Assembly (NCBI GenBank): GCA_018895075.1
Contig: JAHIOW010000034.1
Coordinates: 1-36,671 of the forward strand
From: Candidatus Omnitrophota bacterium
GTDB lineage: Bacteria > Omnitrophota > Gorgyraeia > Gygaellales > Profunditerraquicolaceae
Direction of reading: 5' to 3'
DNA length: 36,671 bases
A model generated the notes under the pieces. The model worked only from the letters and a program-made list of their open reading frames with translations. It searched no databases and was not told the origin of the DNA. Below, in pieces: positions 27,681 to 35,543 of the stretch (position 1 is the stretch's first letter; the number at the start of each line of letters is the position of its first letter). The position numbers and the translations under genes are program-made.

Positions 27681-27815
27681 TAAATCCGAAATTCTAAACA
27701 AATCCCAATGTCTCAAATTCCAAATTCTAAACTTAAATGTTTGGAATATTGGAAAATTAGAATTTAGAAATTGTTTAGTATTTAGATATTGAGATTTAGG
27801 ATTTAATCTTTGCAT
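27660..27815. repeat. AT-rich TCTAAAT/ATTTAGA palindromic repeat element
   Basis: About 155 bases made of shuffled AAATTCTAAA, CAATGTCTCAAATTCC and ATTTAGGATTT words with near-palindromic order. Such arrays are typical of intergenic dispersed repeats in uncultured bacteria. It lies between ymdB and the GH39-like gene, supplies the last ymdB codons (KIKS, stop), and is translated as the spurious N-terminus of the GH39-like frame. Borders are approximate. Confidence 0.65.
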
Positions 27816-28596
27816 TTGGAAGTTTTTTCTGGACTCTGATAATGGAATTTGCTTTCCCTGTTTGTCCGTCAATATCTAAGACTACACCCTGTAACTGAAG
27901 ATTTTCTTTGGCCACCTCAAACCTTACCGGCACAGCGGTAATGAACCTCTCTAAAACATCTTCCACTCTTCTGCCAATGACTGAATCAAAGGCTCCGGTC
28001 ATACCTACGTCAGTAATATAGGCGCTGCCGCCGGGCAAAATTTTCTCATCTGCGGTCTGTACATGTGTATGGGTACCCAAGACTGCGGATACCCTGCCAT
28101 CCAGATACCAGCCTAAAGCCACTTTTTCAGATGTGGCCTCGGCGTGTATATCCACAATAATTACCTTTATATCTCTGGATAGCAATTCTTGTGCCTGGCG
28201 AGAGGTTTTAAAAGGGCACTCTAATGCCTCCATAAAAACCCTACCCTGAAGGTTTATCACGCCTATCTTCAGCCCGCTTTTACTCTTAAATATGCCCATG
28301 CCTTGGCCCGGAGCGCCGGCAGGAAAATTTAAAGGCCTTAAGATGCGTTCGTCTTTATTAATAATCTCCATGATCTCTCTCTTCTTCCAGATATGATCTC
28401 CTGAGGTAAGAACATCAATATCTAAATCAAATAATTCTTTTGCAACTTTTGCTGTAATACCCGAACCGCCAGCAGCATTCTCCGCATTAGCGATAACAAA
28501 ATCGAGGTTGTATTCTTTTTTTAGCGGCGGCAGAAGCCCCTTCATTACTTCTCTGCCCGGGCTACCTACTATGTCTCCGATAAATAATATTTTCAT
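27796..28596 (-). CDS. ymdB: YmdB-family metallophosphoesterase
   Basis: 266 residues, the TIGR00282/YmdB family, a dinuclear-metal phosphodiesterase shown in Bacillus to hydrolyse 2',3'-cyclic nucleotides and affect biofilm and motility. Metal ligands are all visible: Asp in [12 protein letters not shown], Glu/Asn in [14 protein letters not shown], His in [11 protein letters not shown], His in [11 protein letters not shown] and the pair in [22 protein letters not shown] is also family-typical. No signal peptide; cytoplasmic. It follows rny with an ATGA overlap; rny-ymdB is a conserved bacterial gene pair, supporting both calls. The last five codons and stop are formed by the AT-rich repeat. 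Confidence 0.95.
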
Positions 28597-30146
28597 TTTG
28601 CATACTCAATTGCCCTGGTTTCTCTGATGACTGTCACTTTAATTTGGCCTGGGTACTCCATGCCCTCTTCAATTTTTTTGCGGATATCCCGGGCTAGATT
28701 AATAGCATCACTATCTAAAATCTTATCCGGATGCACAATGATCCGTATCTCGCGACCAGCCTGGATAGCAAAGGCCTTATCCACGCCCTTAAAAAGGTTG
28801 GCTATAGACTCTAACTTATCTAACCTTTTGATGTACGTCTCTAAGGTCTCCCGTCTTGCCCCGGGCCGGCTGGCACTTATTGCATCTGCTGCCACTACCA
28901 GTGCCGCAAAAAGATTTTTGACCTCTACTTCCTCATGATGCGCCTCTATTGCTGCCACAACCTCAGCTGACTCATTATATCTCCTGGCCAAATCTGCTCC
29001 TATCTTGGCGTGCGTACCTTCAATCTGATGATCAACGGCCTTACCTATATCATGTAATAGCCCAATGCGCCGGCCGATTTTAAAGTTTAGTTTTAGTTCT
29101 GAAGCCATCACACCCAAAATAAGGGAGACTTCCTTAGAGTGTTGCAGGGCATTTTGACCGAAGCTAGTACGATATTTCAGGCGGCCTAAGAGTTTAATTA
29201 ACTCTGGAGATAAACCGTCTACCCCGGCATCAAATGCGGCATGCTCTCCCTCTTCGCGTATCTTTGCCTCCATTTCCTTCTTGGTCTTTTCTACTACCTC
29301 TTCGATTCTGCCCGGCTGGATCCTGCCGTCGCTAATCAGCTTATCCAAGCTTAATCGGGCTATCTCTCTGCGCACAGGATCAAAACAAGATATGGTTACT
29401 GCTTCAGGCGTATCATCGATTATAACATCAACCCCTGTAGCCATCTCAAACGCACGGATATTTCTTCCTTCCCTGCCAATAACCCTGCCCTTCATCTCAT
29501 CATTAGGCAGAGTTACCACGCTTACTGTTGACTCTACAGTATGTTCTGCAGCGCATCTTTGTATAGCCAAACTTACAATCTCCCGTGCCCTTTTATCTAA
29601 AGATACGTGTATTTCTTCTTCTTGCCTTTTAATCAATGCTGCCTTCTCAACATTCAACTCTTCATTTAGACGATTCAACAAAATCTGTTTTGCTTCCTCG
29701 GCAGATAAAGAGGCTATCTTCTGTAATCTTTCTTTTTCTTCAACAATGAGTAAATGCAACTGATTGTCTTTTGCCTTTATAACGTCTTCCTGTCTCTTGA
29801 TATTCTCTATCCTTGACTCTATCTCCTTTTCTTTCTTCTCTAAAAGGCCCAGCCGACGCTCAATATTCTCTTCTTTTTGAGCCAGCCTTTTCTCTACATC
29901 AGATAGCTCTTGGCGTCTGGTTTGAGTCTGGCGTTCAAAATCCTGGCGCATCCGATACAATAGATCCTTGGCTTCTAACTCTGCCTCTCGACGCATACCA
30001 TGCGTCTCTTTTTGAGCTTGCTCTAAAATATACTTTGCCTTTGCCTCAGCGTCCTGGATTTTTCGTTCGGCTACATATCTCCTTAAGAAATATCCCATGT
30101 ACGCTGAGAATAAAGCAACAACAATGAATATGATTATATTCAACAT
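28593..30146 (-). CDS. rny: Ribonuclease Y
   Basis: 517 residues, the standard RNase Y layout: N-terminal membrane helix (residues 2-20, [19 protein letters not shown]), a long Glu/Lys/Arg/Gln-rich coiled coil (25-190), a KH domain with [20 protein letters not shown] (about residues 220-245), then the HD domain with [13 protein letters not shown], the metal pair in [13 protein letters not shown], and [12 protein letters not shown]. It is a membrane-anchored endoribonuclease that initiates mRNA decay. The ATG is preceded by GGGGAGG. It starts 45 bases after the cyclo-ligase stop, and its own stop overlaps ymdB. All catalytic residues appear intact. Confidence 0.97.
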
Positions 30147-30191
30147 AGATTAATCAACCTCCCCACTATTAAACTTTTCAGGATTCAATAA

Positions 30192-30734
30192 TTAGGCAAA
30201 GATGACCTTTTGTATGCCTACATCTCTGGTGGTGGCGGGTATAGAAGGTAAAATTTGGAAATCGAATGCCAAGCCAACAGTAGTTGTCCTGTTGGAAAGT
30301 TGTTTTAAGAAGCGATCGTAGTAACCCTTACCGCGTCCTAAACGGTTACCTTCTTTATCAAAGGCAACCCCTGGCACAATTACAAAGTCTAAATCTTCTA
30401 AGCTGATAAATCTTTTAATCGCAGGCTCGTATACCCTATAAGGGCCTTTTTTAAAACCTCCCCTTTTACCCAATCGAGAAGGCCTTATTATTCTATTTTT
30501 TGTGCAAACCGGCACTGCGACTATCTTACCCAAATTTTGCGCTTCTTTTATCATTTCTTTTGTATTAACCTCGCCATCAAAGGAGATATAAAACATCACT
30601 GCCTTTGCTTTTCTAAAAACCGAACCTCTGAAAAGTTTTTCTTTTATTATTCTACTCTTCCTATTGCGTTCTTCCTCCTTTTGCGCTCTAAGCCTTAATA
30701 AAATTTTATTGCGAATTTGACCCTTTGTCAACAT
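30192..30734 (-). CDS. ygfA: 5-formyltetrahydrofolate cyclo-ligase
   Basis: 180 residues from the ATG at 30734, which has AAGGT just upstream; a GTG at 30761 would add nine residues but lacks a ribosome site. Converts 5-formyl-THF to 5,10-methenyl-THF with ATP. Family motifs: ILLRLRAQKEEERNRKS at the N-terminus, VMFYISFDGEVNTKEMI, AVPVC, VYEPA, DFVIVPGVAFDKEGNRLGRGKGYYDRFL (phosphate and metal site), and the end QILPSIPATTRDVGIQKVIF. It overlaps the NifU-like gene by 29 bases. In E. coli this gene follows the 6S RNA gene; here a 6S-like RNA opens the same transcription unit 2.5 kb upstream. Confidence 0.94.
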   Translation of the reverse strand: MLTKGQIRNKILLRLRAQKEEERNRKSRIIKEKLFRGSVFRKAKAVMFYISFDGEVNTKEMIKEAQNLGKIVAVPVCTKNRIIRPSRLGKRGGFKKGPYRVYEPAIKRFISLEDLDFVIVPGVAFDKEGNRLGRGKGYYDRFLKQLSNRTTTVGLAFDFQILPSIPATTRDVGIQKVIFA

Positions 30735-31116
30735 CTTTACCTTGCCTCTTGTAATAATCACTAATGGCGGCCTTTAAAGCCTGCTCAGCTAACACAGAAC
30801 AATGCATCTTTACGGCAGGCAGCCCTCCTAATGCCTCAGCCACAGCCTTATTAGAAACCTCCAGGGCCTCTTTGACTGTCTTGCCCTTAACCATCTCAGT
30901 AACCATAGAACTTGTACTAATCGCGGCCCCGCATCCAAAAGTCTTAAACTTGGCATCCACAATAATGCCGTTGTCCACCTTTATATACATACGCATTACA
31001 TCGCCACAAATCACGTTCCCGACATTACCAATGCCGCTGGCGTCGGGAATCTCACCCGCGTTTCTGGGGTGCAAAAAATGGTCCATAACTTTTTCTGAAT
31101 AAGATTGCTCTGTCAT
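30706..31116 (-). CDS. NifU/IscU-type iron-sulfur cluster scaffold
   Basis: 136 residues, N-terminal NifU/IscU domain only. It starts YSEKVMDHFLHPRNAGEI and has the three cluster-ligand cysteines: Cys37 in VICGDVM (with Asp39), Cys62 in TFGCGAAISTSSM and Cys106 in KMHCSVLAEQAL. It assembles [2Fe-2S]/[4Fe-4S] clusters and passes them to apoproteins, in cytoplasm. No IscS-like desulfurase is adjacent. The neighbouring MetV-like protein and ferredoxin are plausible iron-sulfur clients (inference). It overlaps the cyclo-ligase gene downstream and is one base from the MetV-like stop upstream. Confidence 0.94.
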   Translation of the reverse strand: MTEQSYSEKVMDHFLHPRNAGEIPDASGIGNVGNVICGDVMRMYIKVDNGIIVDAKFKTFGCGAAISTSSMVTEMVKGKTVKEALEVSNKAVAEALGGLPAVKMHCSVLAEQALKAAISDYYKRQGKDVDKGSNSQ

Positions 31117-31117
31117 T

Positions 31118-31771
31118 TTATTTTGGCATTATTAGCTGGCGCGGCCTTCCTGCCTTCTTAAAATCCTTGGGCCCTTGAATCTTTCTAAATTCATTAATCT
31201 TCTTTCTCTTTTCCATCTCTTTATAGATTAAAACCCAGGCGCAATCGCGCTCTTTATCCGCCTCGCATTTTCCGCGATTCACGCCACCACAAGGGCCATT
31301 CAGGAGTCCTTTGGAACAGAGGGTAATCGGGCAAATACCTCCCGTAATATCTAAGACGCATTCCCCACACATAGAACACTTCTCATAAAAATTACCCTGG
31401 CTATCCATTGCTGCGCCGAATAAGGTATTGCAGGCAGGCAACACTACCAAACCCAGCCTATCATTATCCTTTACTGACTGTACCCCCAAGCCACAAGCCA
31501 GAACCAATACCGCATCTGCCTGGCGTAAAAGTTTTATGTTCTTGGCTAATTCTGTTTTTATCTGGGCGGCCACGCAGGGCGCATCCGGGATACAGGCACC
31601 TAAAATAATTTTACCGTTTCTTTCTAACTCCTGTTGCATCTTCAACAGTTCATCCTTACCGCCGCTCTTGCAGGTAGTGGCGCATTCGCCGCAACCAATG
31701 AGAAAAACCTTATTGTAATCTTTTAAGGCTTTGACTATCTCTTCTAGTGGTTTTTGTTGGCTTATTATCAT
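31118..31771 (-). CDS. Methylenetetrahydrofolate reductase C-terminal-domain protein (MetV-like)
   Basis: 217 residues rich in cysteine. It matches the MTHFR_C / MetV family, the zinc- or cluster-binding partner of MetF in acetogen-type methylene-THF reductase. Motifs: FLIGCGECATTCKSGG, ILGACIPDAPC, VLACGLGVQSV, LPACNTLFGA, EKCSMCGECVLDITGGICP and the signature GLLNGPCGGVNRGKCE followed by DCAWVLIY. Cytoplasmic. The MetF catalytic subunit is not next door, which is unusual because metV and metF are normally adjacent. The neighbouring 5-formyl-THF cyclo-ligase keeps the folate theme. Starts within the last codons of rarA (4-base overlap). Confidence 0.9.
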   Translation of the reverse strand: MIISQQKPLEEIVKALKDYNKVFLIGCGECATTCKSGGKDELLKMQQELERNGKIILGACIPDAPCVAAQIKTELAKNIKLLRQADAVLVLACGLGVQSVKDNDRLGLVVLPACNTLFGAAMDSQGNFYEKCSMCGECVLDITGGICPITLCSKGLLNGPCGGVNRGKCEADKERDCAWVLIYKEMEKRKKINEFRKIQGPKDFKKAGRPRQLIMPK

Positions 31772-33078
31772 TTTTCTTTGTGCAGTCTTTCTAAGCGCTG
31801 TTTTATTTTGGCTTCGTATCCAATGCTTGTGGGTTCGTAAAATTTTACTTTCTTAGTAGTATAGTCCTGTTTGGTGTAATGCCCTTTATAACTATGCGGG
31901 TATTTATACTGCTTGCCTCGGCCCAATCTTTCTGCGCCGGGATAAGAGGCATCCTTAAGGTGTTCAGGCACCTCCTGTACCTTCTGGTTTTCGATATTCT
32001 CATAAGCCTTCTCAACCGCCAGATATGCAGCGTTAGATTTTTCTGCGCAGGCAATATAGATGGTTGCCTGGGCTAAAGGAATTCTGGCCTCAGGCATCCC
32101 TACAAATTCTGCAATCTGTAATGCTGCATTTGCCAAGACCAGGGCTAACGGGTCGGCATTGCCCACATCCTCTGCTGCGGCAATGCATATCCGGCGGGCA
32201 ATGAAGCGGGGATCCTCGCCCGCATAAAGCATCTTGACCATCCAATATAAAGCTGCATCCGGATCTGAGCCGCGCAAAGATTTTATAAATGCTGAGGCAG
32301 TATCATAGTGGGCATCTTCATCTTTATCATAAAGAACTACTTTTCTCTGTATTGATTCAGAGGCAACTTCTAAGTTAAAATTTATAAAAGCATTTTTGGA
32401 TTTGGACGTAGTGAGTACGCCGACCTCCAGGGCACTCAGCGCCCGTCGAGCATCCCCCTCGCAGGCCTTGGCTAAAAAGAGCAATGCCTGCTTATCCGCC
32501 CTGATATTCAAAGCCCCCAATCCTCTGGTTTTCTCCTTTAAGGCAGAGGTCAGTATCTTGAGACTCTCATCCCTGCTCAGGGGTTTTAACTCAAATAGCA
32601 TGGAACGCGATAATAATGGCGAGGCAAGATAAAAACAAGGATTATGCACTGTTGCGCCGATTAAAACGGGGTTTCCTTCTTCTACATCAGGCATAAGCAC
32701 ATCTTGCTGTGCCTTGTTAAAACGGTGTATCTCATCAATAAAAACTATGGTTTTTCTGGCAGTGTTGGCCTGACGCGCCTTGGCTGCGGCAATAACCTTC
32801 CTTAATTCCTCTACATTGGAAGTAGTGGCATTGATCGCCACATAATGTGATTTAGTCACATTGGCAATACACCAGGCCAGAGAGGTCTTACCAGAGCCCG
32901 GCGGGCCGTATAATATCAAAGAACTAACGCGGTCTGCTTCAATTGCCCGACGCAAGAGTTTGCCCTTGCCGAGGATATGCTCCTGGCCGACAAATTCATC
33001 TAAACTGCGCGGCCGCATACGTACAGCCAAAGGCAAATTTTTATTATCTGTAACTAATTTTTCTTCAAAAAGGTCCAT
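31768..33078 (-). CDS. rarA: Replication-associated recombination protein A (MgsA/RarA AAA+ ATPase)
   Basis: 436 residues from the ATG at 33078 (MDLFEEKLVTDNKNLPLAVR). A longer frame reaching 33177 runs through the upstream hairpin and is rejected. Clamp-loader-like AAA+ protein acting at stalled replication forks. It has RMRPRSLDEFVGQEHILGKG, Walker A LILYGPPGSGKTSLAW, Walker B TIVFIDEIHRFNKAQQD, sensor 1 VLIGATVHNPCF, arginine finger LLSRSMLFELKPL, and the C-terminal tetramer domain with MLYAGEDPRFIARRICIAA and SYPGAERLGRGKQYKYPHSY. First protein gene of the long minus-strand operon, downstream of the 6S-like RNA. Its 33079-33350 leader holds two competing structures. Confidence 0.95.
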   Translation of the reverse strand: MDLFEEKLVTDNKNLPLAVRMRPRSLDEFVGQEHILGKGKLLRRAIEADRVSSLILYGPPGSGKTSLAWCIANVTKSHYVAINATTSNVEELRKVIAAAKARQANTARKTIVFIDEIHRFNKAQQDVLMPDVEEGNPVLIGATVHNPCFYLASPLLSRSMLFELKPLSRDESLKILTSALKEKTRGLGALNIRADKQALLFLAKACEGDARRALSALEVGVLTTSKSKNAFINFNLEVASESIQRKVVLYDKDEDAHYDTASAFIKSLRGSDPDAALYWMVKMLYAGEDPRFIARRICIAAAEDVGNADPLALVLANAALQIAEFVGMPEARIPLAQATIYIACAEKSNAAYLAVEKAYENIENQKVQEVPEHLKDASYPGAERLGRGKQYKYPHSYKGHYTKQDYTTKKVKFYEPTSIGYEAKIKQRLERLHKEK

Positions 33079-33128
33079 AACTATCTTATCCCGCACCTTT
33101 CTATTGTAAAGTATTACTTCATAACAAG

Positions 33129-33207
33129 GTGCGGGATTTTTTCGCACATATAACTTATGTCGCTCTCCGAGCTCCATAAGTTATGTGCTCAAAAAAAATC
33201 CCCGCAC
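33129..33207 (-). promoter_or_regulatory. Long leader hairpin overlapping the 6S-like RNA 3' end
   Basis: Near-perfect inverted repeat: GTGCGGGATTTTTT at 33129 onward and AATCCCCGCAC ending at 33207, with inner arms GCACATAtAACTTATG and CATAAGTTaTGTGC around a 15-base loop, about 30 paired bases. On the minus strand its 5' arm contains GCGGGGA and the U-run that close the 6S-like RNA, so both cannot form at once. It lies wholly in the rarA leader. Confidence 0.75.
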
Positions 33208-33377
33208 TGTGCCGTTGGATATGATGGGCTGAACCGGTTTATTTATATGTGGGCGCCTCCCTTTGATGCCGAAGCGTCAAAGGAGCCAAGCTCCCTTTAA
33301 ATAGGTGTTGGTTCACCAATCATCAGACCTTCCAACGGGCACGGCAGGGATATTTAAATGAGCGTATTTTTTCTGAT
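33191..33377 (-). ncRNA. ssrS: 6S RNA candidate (long rod-like RNA upstream of rarA)
   Basis: About 187 bases from the predicted start (near 33377) to the U8 run (33198-33191). The body folds as one interrupted rod: UCCCUGC (33350-33344) with GCGGGGA, GUGCC with GGCAC, GUUGG with CCAAC, UGAUG with CAUCA, UGAACC with GGUUCA, UAUUUA with UAAAUA, and an apical CUCCUUUGA/UCAAAGGGAG stem closed by GC-UUCG-GC. Unpaired bases accumulate in the central part. Length, rod shape, strong promoter, U-run, and linkage to rarA and the cyclo-ligase gene (E. coli ssrS precedes ygfA) all fit 6S RNA, which binds sigma70 RNA polymerase. No sequence-level match was tested, so another structured RNA is possible. 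Confidence 0.6.
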
Positions 33378-33383
33378 AAAAAA

Positions 33384-33412
33384 AGTATAACACATCTTTC
33401 AAAATAAGTCAA
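33384..33412 (-). promoter_or_regulatory. Strong promoter for the 6S-like RNA and rarA operon
   Basis: Minus-strand -35 TTGACT (33407-33412) and -10 TATACT (33384-33389), spacing 17. Transcription would begin near 33377, about 27 bases before the closing stem of the structured RNA. Confidence 0.8.
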
Positions 33413-35038: not shown

Positions 35039-35275
35039 CTATGCCTGTGAATATTGCATCGCATACCTATCCACCAGCTGGCGTATCATCCTCTGATATT
35101 TTGTATGGTATTGCCTAGCTTCTTGTTTAAAAAAATCTACGCTTGATTTACTCAGAGATATTGTAACCTTTACGGCCTCTTGAGGAATAACCAGTTCCTC
35201 CGGTGGTGGAAGAAAATCAACAATTCTAGTCATCTTCCCAATAGGTTTATTTGGATCTGTTATCTTCTTTTTCAT
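35039..35275 (-). CDS. BrnA-like antitoxin
   Basis: 78 residues from the ATG at 35275, which follows GGGGGAAC; a longer reading to 35308 overlaps more of brnT and lacks a ribosome site. The N-terminal half is proline- and charge-rich (TRIVDFLPPPEELVIPQEA), and the C-terminal half is a ribbon-helix-helix domain: VKVTISLSKSSVDFFKQEAR then YQRMIRQLVDRYAMQ. This matches BrnA/CopG-type antitoxins, which neutralise BrnT and repress their own promoter. Gene order toxin then antitoxin, with a 29-base overlap, is typical of brnTA. Confidence 0.85.
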   Translation of the reverse strand: MKKKITDPNKPIGKMTRIVDFLPPPEELVIPQEAVKVTISLSKSSVDFFKQEARQYHTKYQRMIRQLVDRYAMQYSQA

Positions 35276-35543
35276 AGTACCGTTCCCCCTTTCTCCAATA
35301 ACCGGCACCGATTATCCTAATTTTCCCGTTACGATAAGTGAATCTTACCGTTAAAACCCTCTTGCCTGCTTTTCCTATACAGAAAAACCGTTCTTCTTTT
35401 TCGCTGTGTCTAGAATCAATGTAAATCTTTCTTTTAGGATCTTTGAATGCCTTTGACGCAGCAATAAAATCGACTCCATGTTTATAAATATTGGCTAGCT
35501 CTTTCTCAAAATCCCAAGTAAAACTACTAGAGCCTTTTCCCAT
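35247..35543 (-). CDS. brnT: BrnT-family ribonuclease toxin
   Basis: 98 residues. Family motifs: FTWDFEKELANIYKHGVDFIAA (usual form F-x-W-D-x-x-K-x-x-x-N-x-x-K-H-G-V-x-F), HSEKEERFFCIGKAGKRVL (H-S-E-x-E-E-R-F), and the C-terminal strand KIRIIGAGYWRKGERYYE (usual R-I-I-S-A-R). BrnT is a RelE-fold ribonuclease that halts translation; BrnA downstream counters it. The ATG lies 6 bases beyond a perfect-spaced promoter -10 and has no Shine-Dalgarno, so translation probably starts on a leaderless mRNA. Confidence 0.9.
   Translation of the reverse strand: MGKGSSSFTWDFEKELANIYKHGVDFIAASKAFKDPKRKIYIDSRHSEKEERFFCIGKAGKRVLTVRFTYRNGKIRIIGAGYWRKGERYYEKEDNRSK

Follow-up and report, generated by a model that had tools for sequence, protein, structure and literature searches.

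The window, that is, the whole stretch of 36,671 nucleotides of a Candidatus Omnitrophota bacterium analysed here (contig JAHIOW010000034.1), carries on its minus strand, in the direction of transcription, a promoter, a 6S RNA gene, a U8 run, a palindromic arm of 52 nt (33192-33141), another hairpin (33137-33088) and finally the start of rarA. The features are the following:

33384..33412, minus strand: promoter of the 6S gene, with a -35 element TTGACT, a 17-nt spacer and an extended -10 element TGTTATACT (sequence and comparative support)
33195..33353, minus strand: core of the 6S (SsrS) RNA (Rfam RF00013, own covariance model, covariation)
33193..33200, minus strand: U8 run that ends the 6S RNA, resembling an intrinsic terminator (sequence; T-run after GCGGGGA in most homologues)
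33141..33192, minus strand: single arm (TGAG...CGAA) of a palindrome dispersed in Omnitrophota; it forms the core of the second hairpin described in the original prediction (69.2 bits with model R2; a 96% identical copy elsewhere)
33088..33137, minus strand: central hairpin P2 of the palindrome element, ATCCCGCACCTT ... AAGGTGCGGGAT, whose 5' strand contains UCCCGCAC (fold; same P2 away from 6S in genome G015)
31768..33078, minus strand: rarA, encoding an AAA ATPase of 436 aa (80 homologous loci)

The start of rarA was placed at the ATG at 33078, and not at the start of a longer open reading frame at 33177; its nearest relatives (60-80% identity) are nearly all from Omnitrophota. A tight colinear row on the minus strand (27796-33078) consists of rarA and genes for a MTHFR C-terminal domain protein, a NifU-type scaffold, a 5-formyltetrahydrofolate cyclo-ligase, RNase Y and a TIGR00282 phosphoesterase. 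On the other side, a gene for a papain-family cysteine protease (PF00112; 33434-34216, minus) lies directly upstream of the 6S promoter. Further upstream, a gene for a BrnT-like ribonuclease toxin (Pfam PF04365) is followed by a short overlapping open reading frame at the place expected for the antitoxin (35039-35543, minus), and the two are likely a BrnTA toxin-antitoxin pair.

6S RNAs are small RNAs that hold RNA polymerase in check. The original prediction had proposed a 6S RNA candidate in front of rarA, to be checked against the Rfam covariance model, and the sequence elements that it described were all found where it had placed them. The RF00013 model matched 33353-33195 (minus strand) at 56.0 bits, above the gathering cut-off of 46.4, with an E-value of 3.1e-10. 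To see this match, the filters had to be relaxed and the search confined to a short stretch; with the default filters of Rfam nothing was found by RF00013 in the whole window or in the whole genome, so that the absence of 6S from automatic annotation means little. Six relatives scored 63.9-82.6 bits on the same model. Our own covariance model gave the window 6S 134.7 bits, a value obtained by construction, since the model was trained on the window sequence and its close kin; the Rfam scores are independent. By this model a single 6S gene was found in each of 52 of the 58 related genomes searched, including all 23 of the more complete ones.

The predicted fold of 33360-33180 has an energy of -65.1 kcal/mol (z -4.7), which none of 200 shuffled sequences equalled, and it takes the form of a rod with a closing stem, a central bubble, in which the sequence TGAACCAAC is conserved, and a terminal stem. 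Across 34 aligned sequences, 96.5% of the stem cells are paired and two-sided changes occur at 13 of the 27 stem pairs; the covariation measures exceeded those of every slid control and every shuffle (0 of 500 matched the observed values). The Rfam score above cut-off and the compensatory changes in the stems bear out the 6S assignment, and on these comparative grounds we regard the window RNA as an established, genuine 6S RNA. It shares with the RF00013 family the rod fold, the single copy, an own promoter and the U-run at its end, and differs in that it scores moderately, is lost by the default filters and sits before rarA as an apparent leader. Binding of sigma70-RNA polymerase and templating of pRNA, which are traits of 6S RNAs, may also apply here as putative functions, of which the bubble sequence is the visible part.

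An own promoter and a U8 end, both part of the original prediction, were confirmed. The promoter reads TTGACT-17-TATACT with TG preceding the -10 element (33412-33384), and an extended -10 is kept at this place in 34 of 41 homologues, compared with 11% of shuffled sequences. The U8 run lies at 33200-33193, and a T-run is found behind GCGGGGA in most homologues. Between the -10 element and the 6S closing stem, a stretch (G/C)TTCTTTTAGATAT or similar is conserved in L018, L020, L021, L023, L029, L038 and other close relatives, where it could lengthen the closing stem against the U-run; in more distant relatives just 4-8 nt separate the two.

The order of 6S and rarA is a property of the phylum. 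Of the 48 Omnitrophota loci whose upstream sequence was long enough for the test, about 46 (counted from the tabulated scan with our own model) have 6S immediately before rarA and on its strand, and the same order was found in many loci of Verrucomicrobiota, Kiritimatiellae and Planctomycetota and in a few of Bacillota. The ATG of rarA follows the 6S stem at a distance of 8 to about 330 nt, and rarely more. This distance shrinks to 8-12 nt in L014, L018, L020, L023 and L064 (L020, for instance, has GCGGGGATTTTTTTTATGGAT), and since a promoter does not fit into such gaps, rarA would have to be transcribed there from a start at the 6S promoter or within 6S. Thus rarA probably receives its transcripts by read-through of polymerase that started at the 6S promoter, in the manner of E. 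coli ygfA, and the read-through idea of the original prediction gains support from the short gaps in five species and from the phylum-wide order and strand.

In E. coli the co-transcription of 6S with its downstream gene is established in ssrS-ygfA (PMC7641849, PMC2848244). There, too, 6S is the first gene before a protein gene, and the row in the window also contains a YgfA-family 5-formyltetrahydrofolate cyclo-ligase gene (30192-30761), three genes past rarA; the difference is that in the window rarA comes first. In addition, the read-through from ssrS is reported to end in a Rho-dependent manner, according to the title of a paper cited in PMC7641849, whereas the stem and U-run in the window suggest intrinsic termination. 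Lactic acid bacteria and B. subtilis also have rarA and 6S as neighbours. However, rarA is upstream of 6S there, in B. subtilis on the other strand (PMC8414754), while the window 6S is upstream of rarA on the same strand.

It could be argued that 6S and rarA are merely adjacent, rarA being transcribed from a promoter of its own between them. A weak promoter-like match is present in the loop of P2 (33110-33083), although at 9 of 12 positions it is within chance expectation, and 6S appears to be monocistronic in lactic acid bacteria (PMC8414754). Such independence would be hard to reconcile with the conservation of order and strand across the phylum and with at least five species in which the rarA ATG is too close to the 6S stem for a promoter outside 6S, and we consider it unlikely.

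The hairpin material between the U-run and rarA belongs to a dispersed palindrome. Comparison of the leader with the genome by blast retrieved the 96% identical copy of the arm on another contig together with many weaker copies, and a covariance model of the arm found 43 arms in the genome of 1.05 Mb (two reverse-strand echoes discounted), as well as matches in 30 of 40 related genomes, with up to 67 in a single one. In this genome, 34 of the 43 arms are grouped into 17 head-to-head pairs, each around a P2 central stem, and no pair in any other orientation was seen among them; the copy in the window is made of one arm plus P2. Such pairs with central stems lie on contigs C17, C33, C37, C41, C53, C63, C71 and C73 of G000, some of them between operon genes, as beside a sigma-factor-like gene on C71. 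The end tag is TGAG and the outer flank TAAGT or TAAAT. The outer and inner flanks of the arms are complementary beyond expectation (mean 4.4 pairs, vs 2.9 in re-paired controls). At the window arm the 6S U-run serves as the outer strand and AAAAAA as the inner one, and because of this complementarity the original prediction saw a single continuous long hairpin. A second hairpin is indeed present, but its inner palindrome is a dispersed repeat, which had been overlooked.

That the element moves is indicated by two genomes of the same genus. In G034 the junction reads GCGGGGATTTTTTTTAACAGTTATG, while in G039 it reads GCGGGGATTTTTTTT, followed by 105 nt (arm plus P2) and AACAGTTATG; the aligned stretch outside the insert is 82% identical, and the insert is a clean 105 nt placed exactly behind the 6S U-run. 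With an empty site in G034 and an occupied one in G039, the palindrome either moved in or was cleanly lost. A duplication of TA at the empty site is possible. An IS630/Tc1 origin, prompted by this possible duplication, was rejected, as the genome lacks a DDE_3 gene and such a gene was found in just 3 of 40 relatives. A RAYT-driven origin was considered as well, the genome having two Y1_Tnp genes, but copy numbers, which do not correlate, gave it no support.

The family resembles REP, BIME and REPIN elements, which are short, mobile extragenic palindromes dispersed over a genome in tens of copies and frequently arranged as inverted doublets with a spacer between them; both the multi-copy dispersal and the inverted doublets were found here. 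However, REP elements are defined by a GTAG or CGTC tag at one end (PMC3733652), the doublets of the Omnitrophota palindrome enclose a strong central stem, and its copy number does not track that of RAYT-like transposase genes (Spearman -0.10, p 0.54, 40 genomes). We file it as REP-like and, since its tag is TGAG, outside the named REP superfamilies.

A structure that functions as RNA tolerates G-U pairs. The arms of the palindrome have 271 two-sided and 7 one-sided changes, with almost no G-U steps, whereas the 6S stems have 50 and 44, respectively (Fisher p 1.5e-23, not to be taken literally because repeat copies are not independent). The variation of the arms by full Watson-Crick swaps suggests that the constraint on the palindrome acts on its DNA. 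This weighs against its retention as a processing or protective hairpin, from which an RNase would free 6S out of the read-through RNA, or which would shield the 5' end of the rarA mRNA. Strong hairpins do occur just past the U-run in several species with long gaps, some of them with sequences unrelated to the arm, and the 6S RNA of E. coli is processed from longer transcripts (PMC7641849). Nevertheless, many junctions are too short for any hairpin, and we consider such a role quite improbable. The arm-unrelated hairpins, which directly follow the 6S U-run in L178, L183, L184, L169 and L191 and are themselves followed by an AUCC-type stem, are possibly other palindrome families sharing the site.

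The original prediction had assigned to the second hairpin the role of a switch, in which the strand of the 6S closing stem would pair in read-through RNA with UCCCGCAC, open 6S and set the balance between 6S and the rarA operon. The complementarity to the 6S strand exists: 33207-33194 matches 33142-33129 (14 nt, 86%), flanking the inner palindrome, and when this pairing is imposed, the resulting hairpin has about 32 pairs. Imposing it also frees the 5' strand of 6S, which pairs with the 3' strand of P2 in a neat four-strand exchange. Yet a longer partner of UCCCGCAC, namely AAGGUGCGGGAU, lies directly downstream and had escaped attention, as 33104-33088 pairs with 33137-33121 at 88% over 17 nt. 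At none of the transcript lengths tried was it favourable to force the 6S 3' strand onto UCCCGCAC, the penalty being 4.5-11.8 kcal/mol, so that intact 6S plus P2 is the energetically preferred state of the window. In the 30 species compared, the alternative costs on average 8.0 kcal/mol, and 29 of them retain the closing stem of 6S; the alternative is almost as stable in L201 (0.8 kcal/mol) and equal in L015 (0.0 kcal/mol). The alternative pairings of an attenuator or antiterminator would be conserved and of comparable stability, which is not what this mean penalty indicates, and the claim that the second fold dissolves the 6S stem did not hold.

The complementarity to the 6S tail is not peculiar to this site either. 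With the U-run left out, five other copies in the genome pair with it at -18.0 to -19.4 kcal/mol, compared with -17.2 for the window copy. In G015, a genome of another genus, ATCCCGCACCTT and its partner AAGGTGC(GGGAT) occur on two contigs, C2 and C32, and C24 carries a close variant, while 6S is on C39; P2 of AATCCC or ATCCC type was seen elsewhere in G015, G022, G026 and G029. The UCCCGCAC strand covaries at its variable bases with its partner in P2, not with the 6S strand. Among 6S junctions, the AUCCCG form of P2 is more frequent (about 10 of 18) than in a sample of copies from two genomes (1 of 60 with AATCCC). A selected link between 6S and UCCCGCAC was rejected as the main reading of this excess, given that G015 has an identical or almost identical P2 at three places other than its 6S gene; shared descent of one old insertion is the simple explanation, and weak selection may also contribute. 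Finally, the hairpin forms once polymerase is past the U-run, so it could act on already read-through transcripts alone and cannot prevent termination at the end of 6S. A dedicated switch, for all its complementarity, its orderly exchange of strands and the frequency of AUCCCG at 6S junctions, is thus very improbable for an element that is a mobile palindrome copy, is absent from many 6S-rarA junctions, is precisely missing in a same-genus relative and is equalled in pairing by copies far from 6S.

We strongly favour, instead, that the 6S gene doubles as the leader of rarA, and that a mobile palindrome, not a conserved switch, accounts for the hairpin between the two. Polymerase would start at the extended -10 promoter (33412-33384) and make the 6S rod, and most transcripts would be released at the U8 run past the closing stem. 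The fraction that reads through would supply rarA and the colinear genes behind it. One arm and P2 of the mobile palindrome would simply sit right behind the U-run, and we infer for them no regulatory role.

These data firmly place a 6S RNA in an uncultured phylum, and they remove a tempting riboswitch-like reading of its junction with rarA, since the hairpin is mobile DNA, as the empty site attests. The dispersed palindromes of Omnitrophota described here form a family whose members can pass for RNA regulators. The phylum-wide order of 6S and then rarA, of which the literature, as far as we searched it, holds the reverse arrangement alone (lactic acid bacteria), ties a global regulator of polymerase to a replication-fork repair gene, probably via direct read-through. 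It is tempting to speculate, although we hold it to be rather doubtful, that the rarA operon has no promoter other than that of 6S throughout Omnitrophota, and perhaps in the PVC group at large, with the efficiency of termination setting the level of RarA and palindromes behind the U-run tuning the ratio in each species. If so, 6S RNA would be the obligatory leader of a replication-repair gene.
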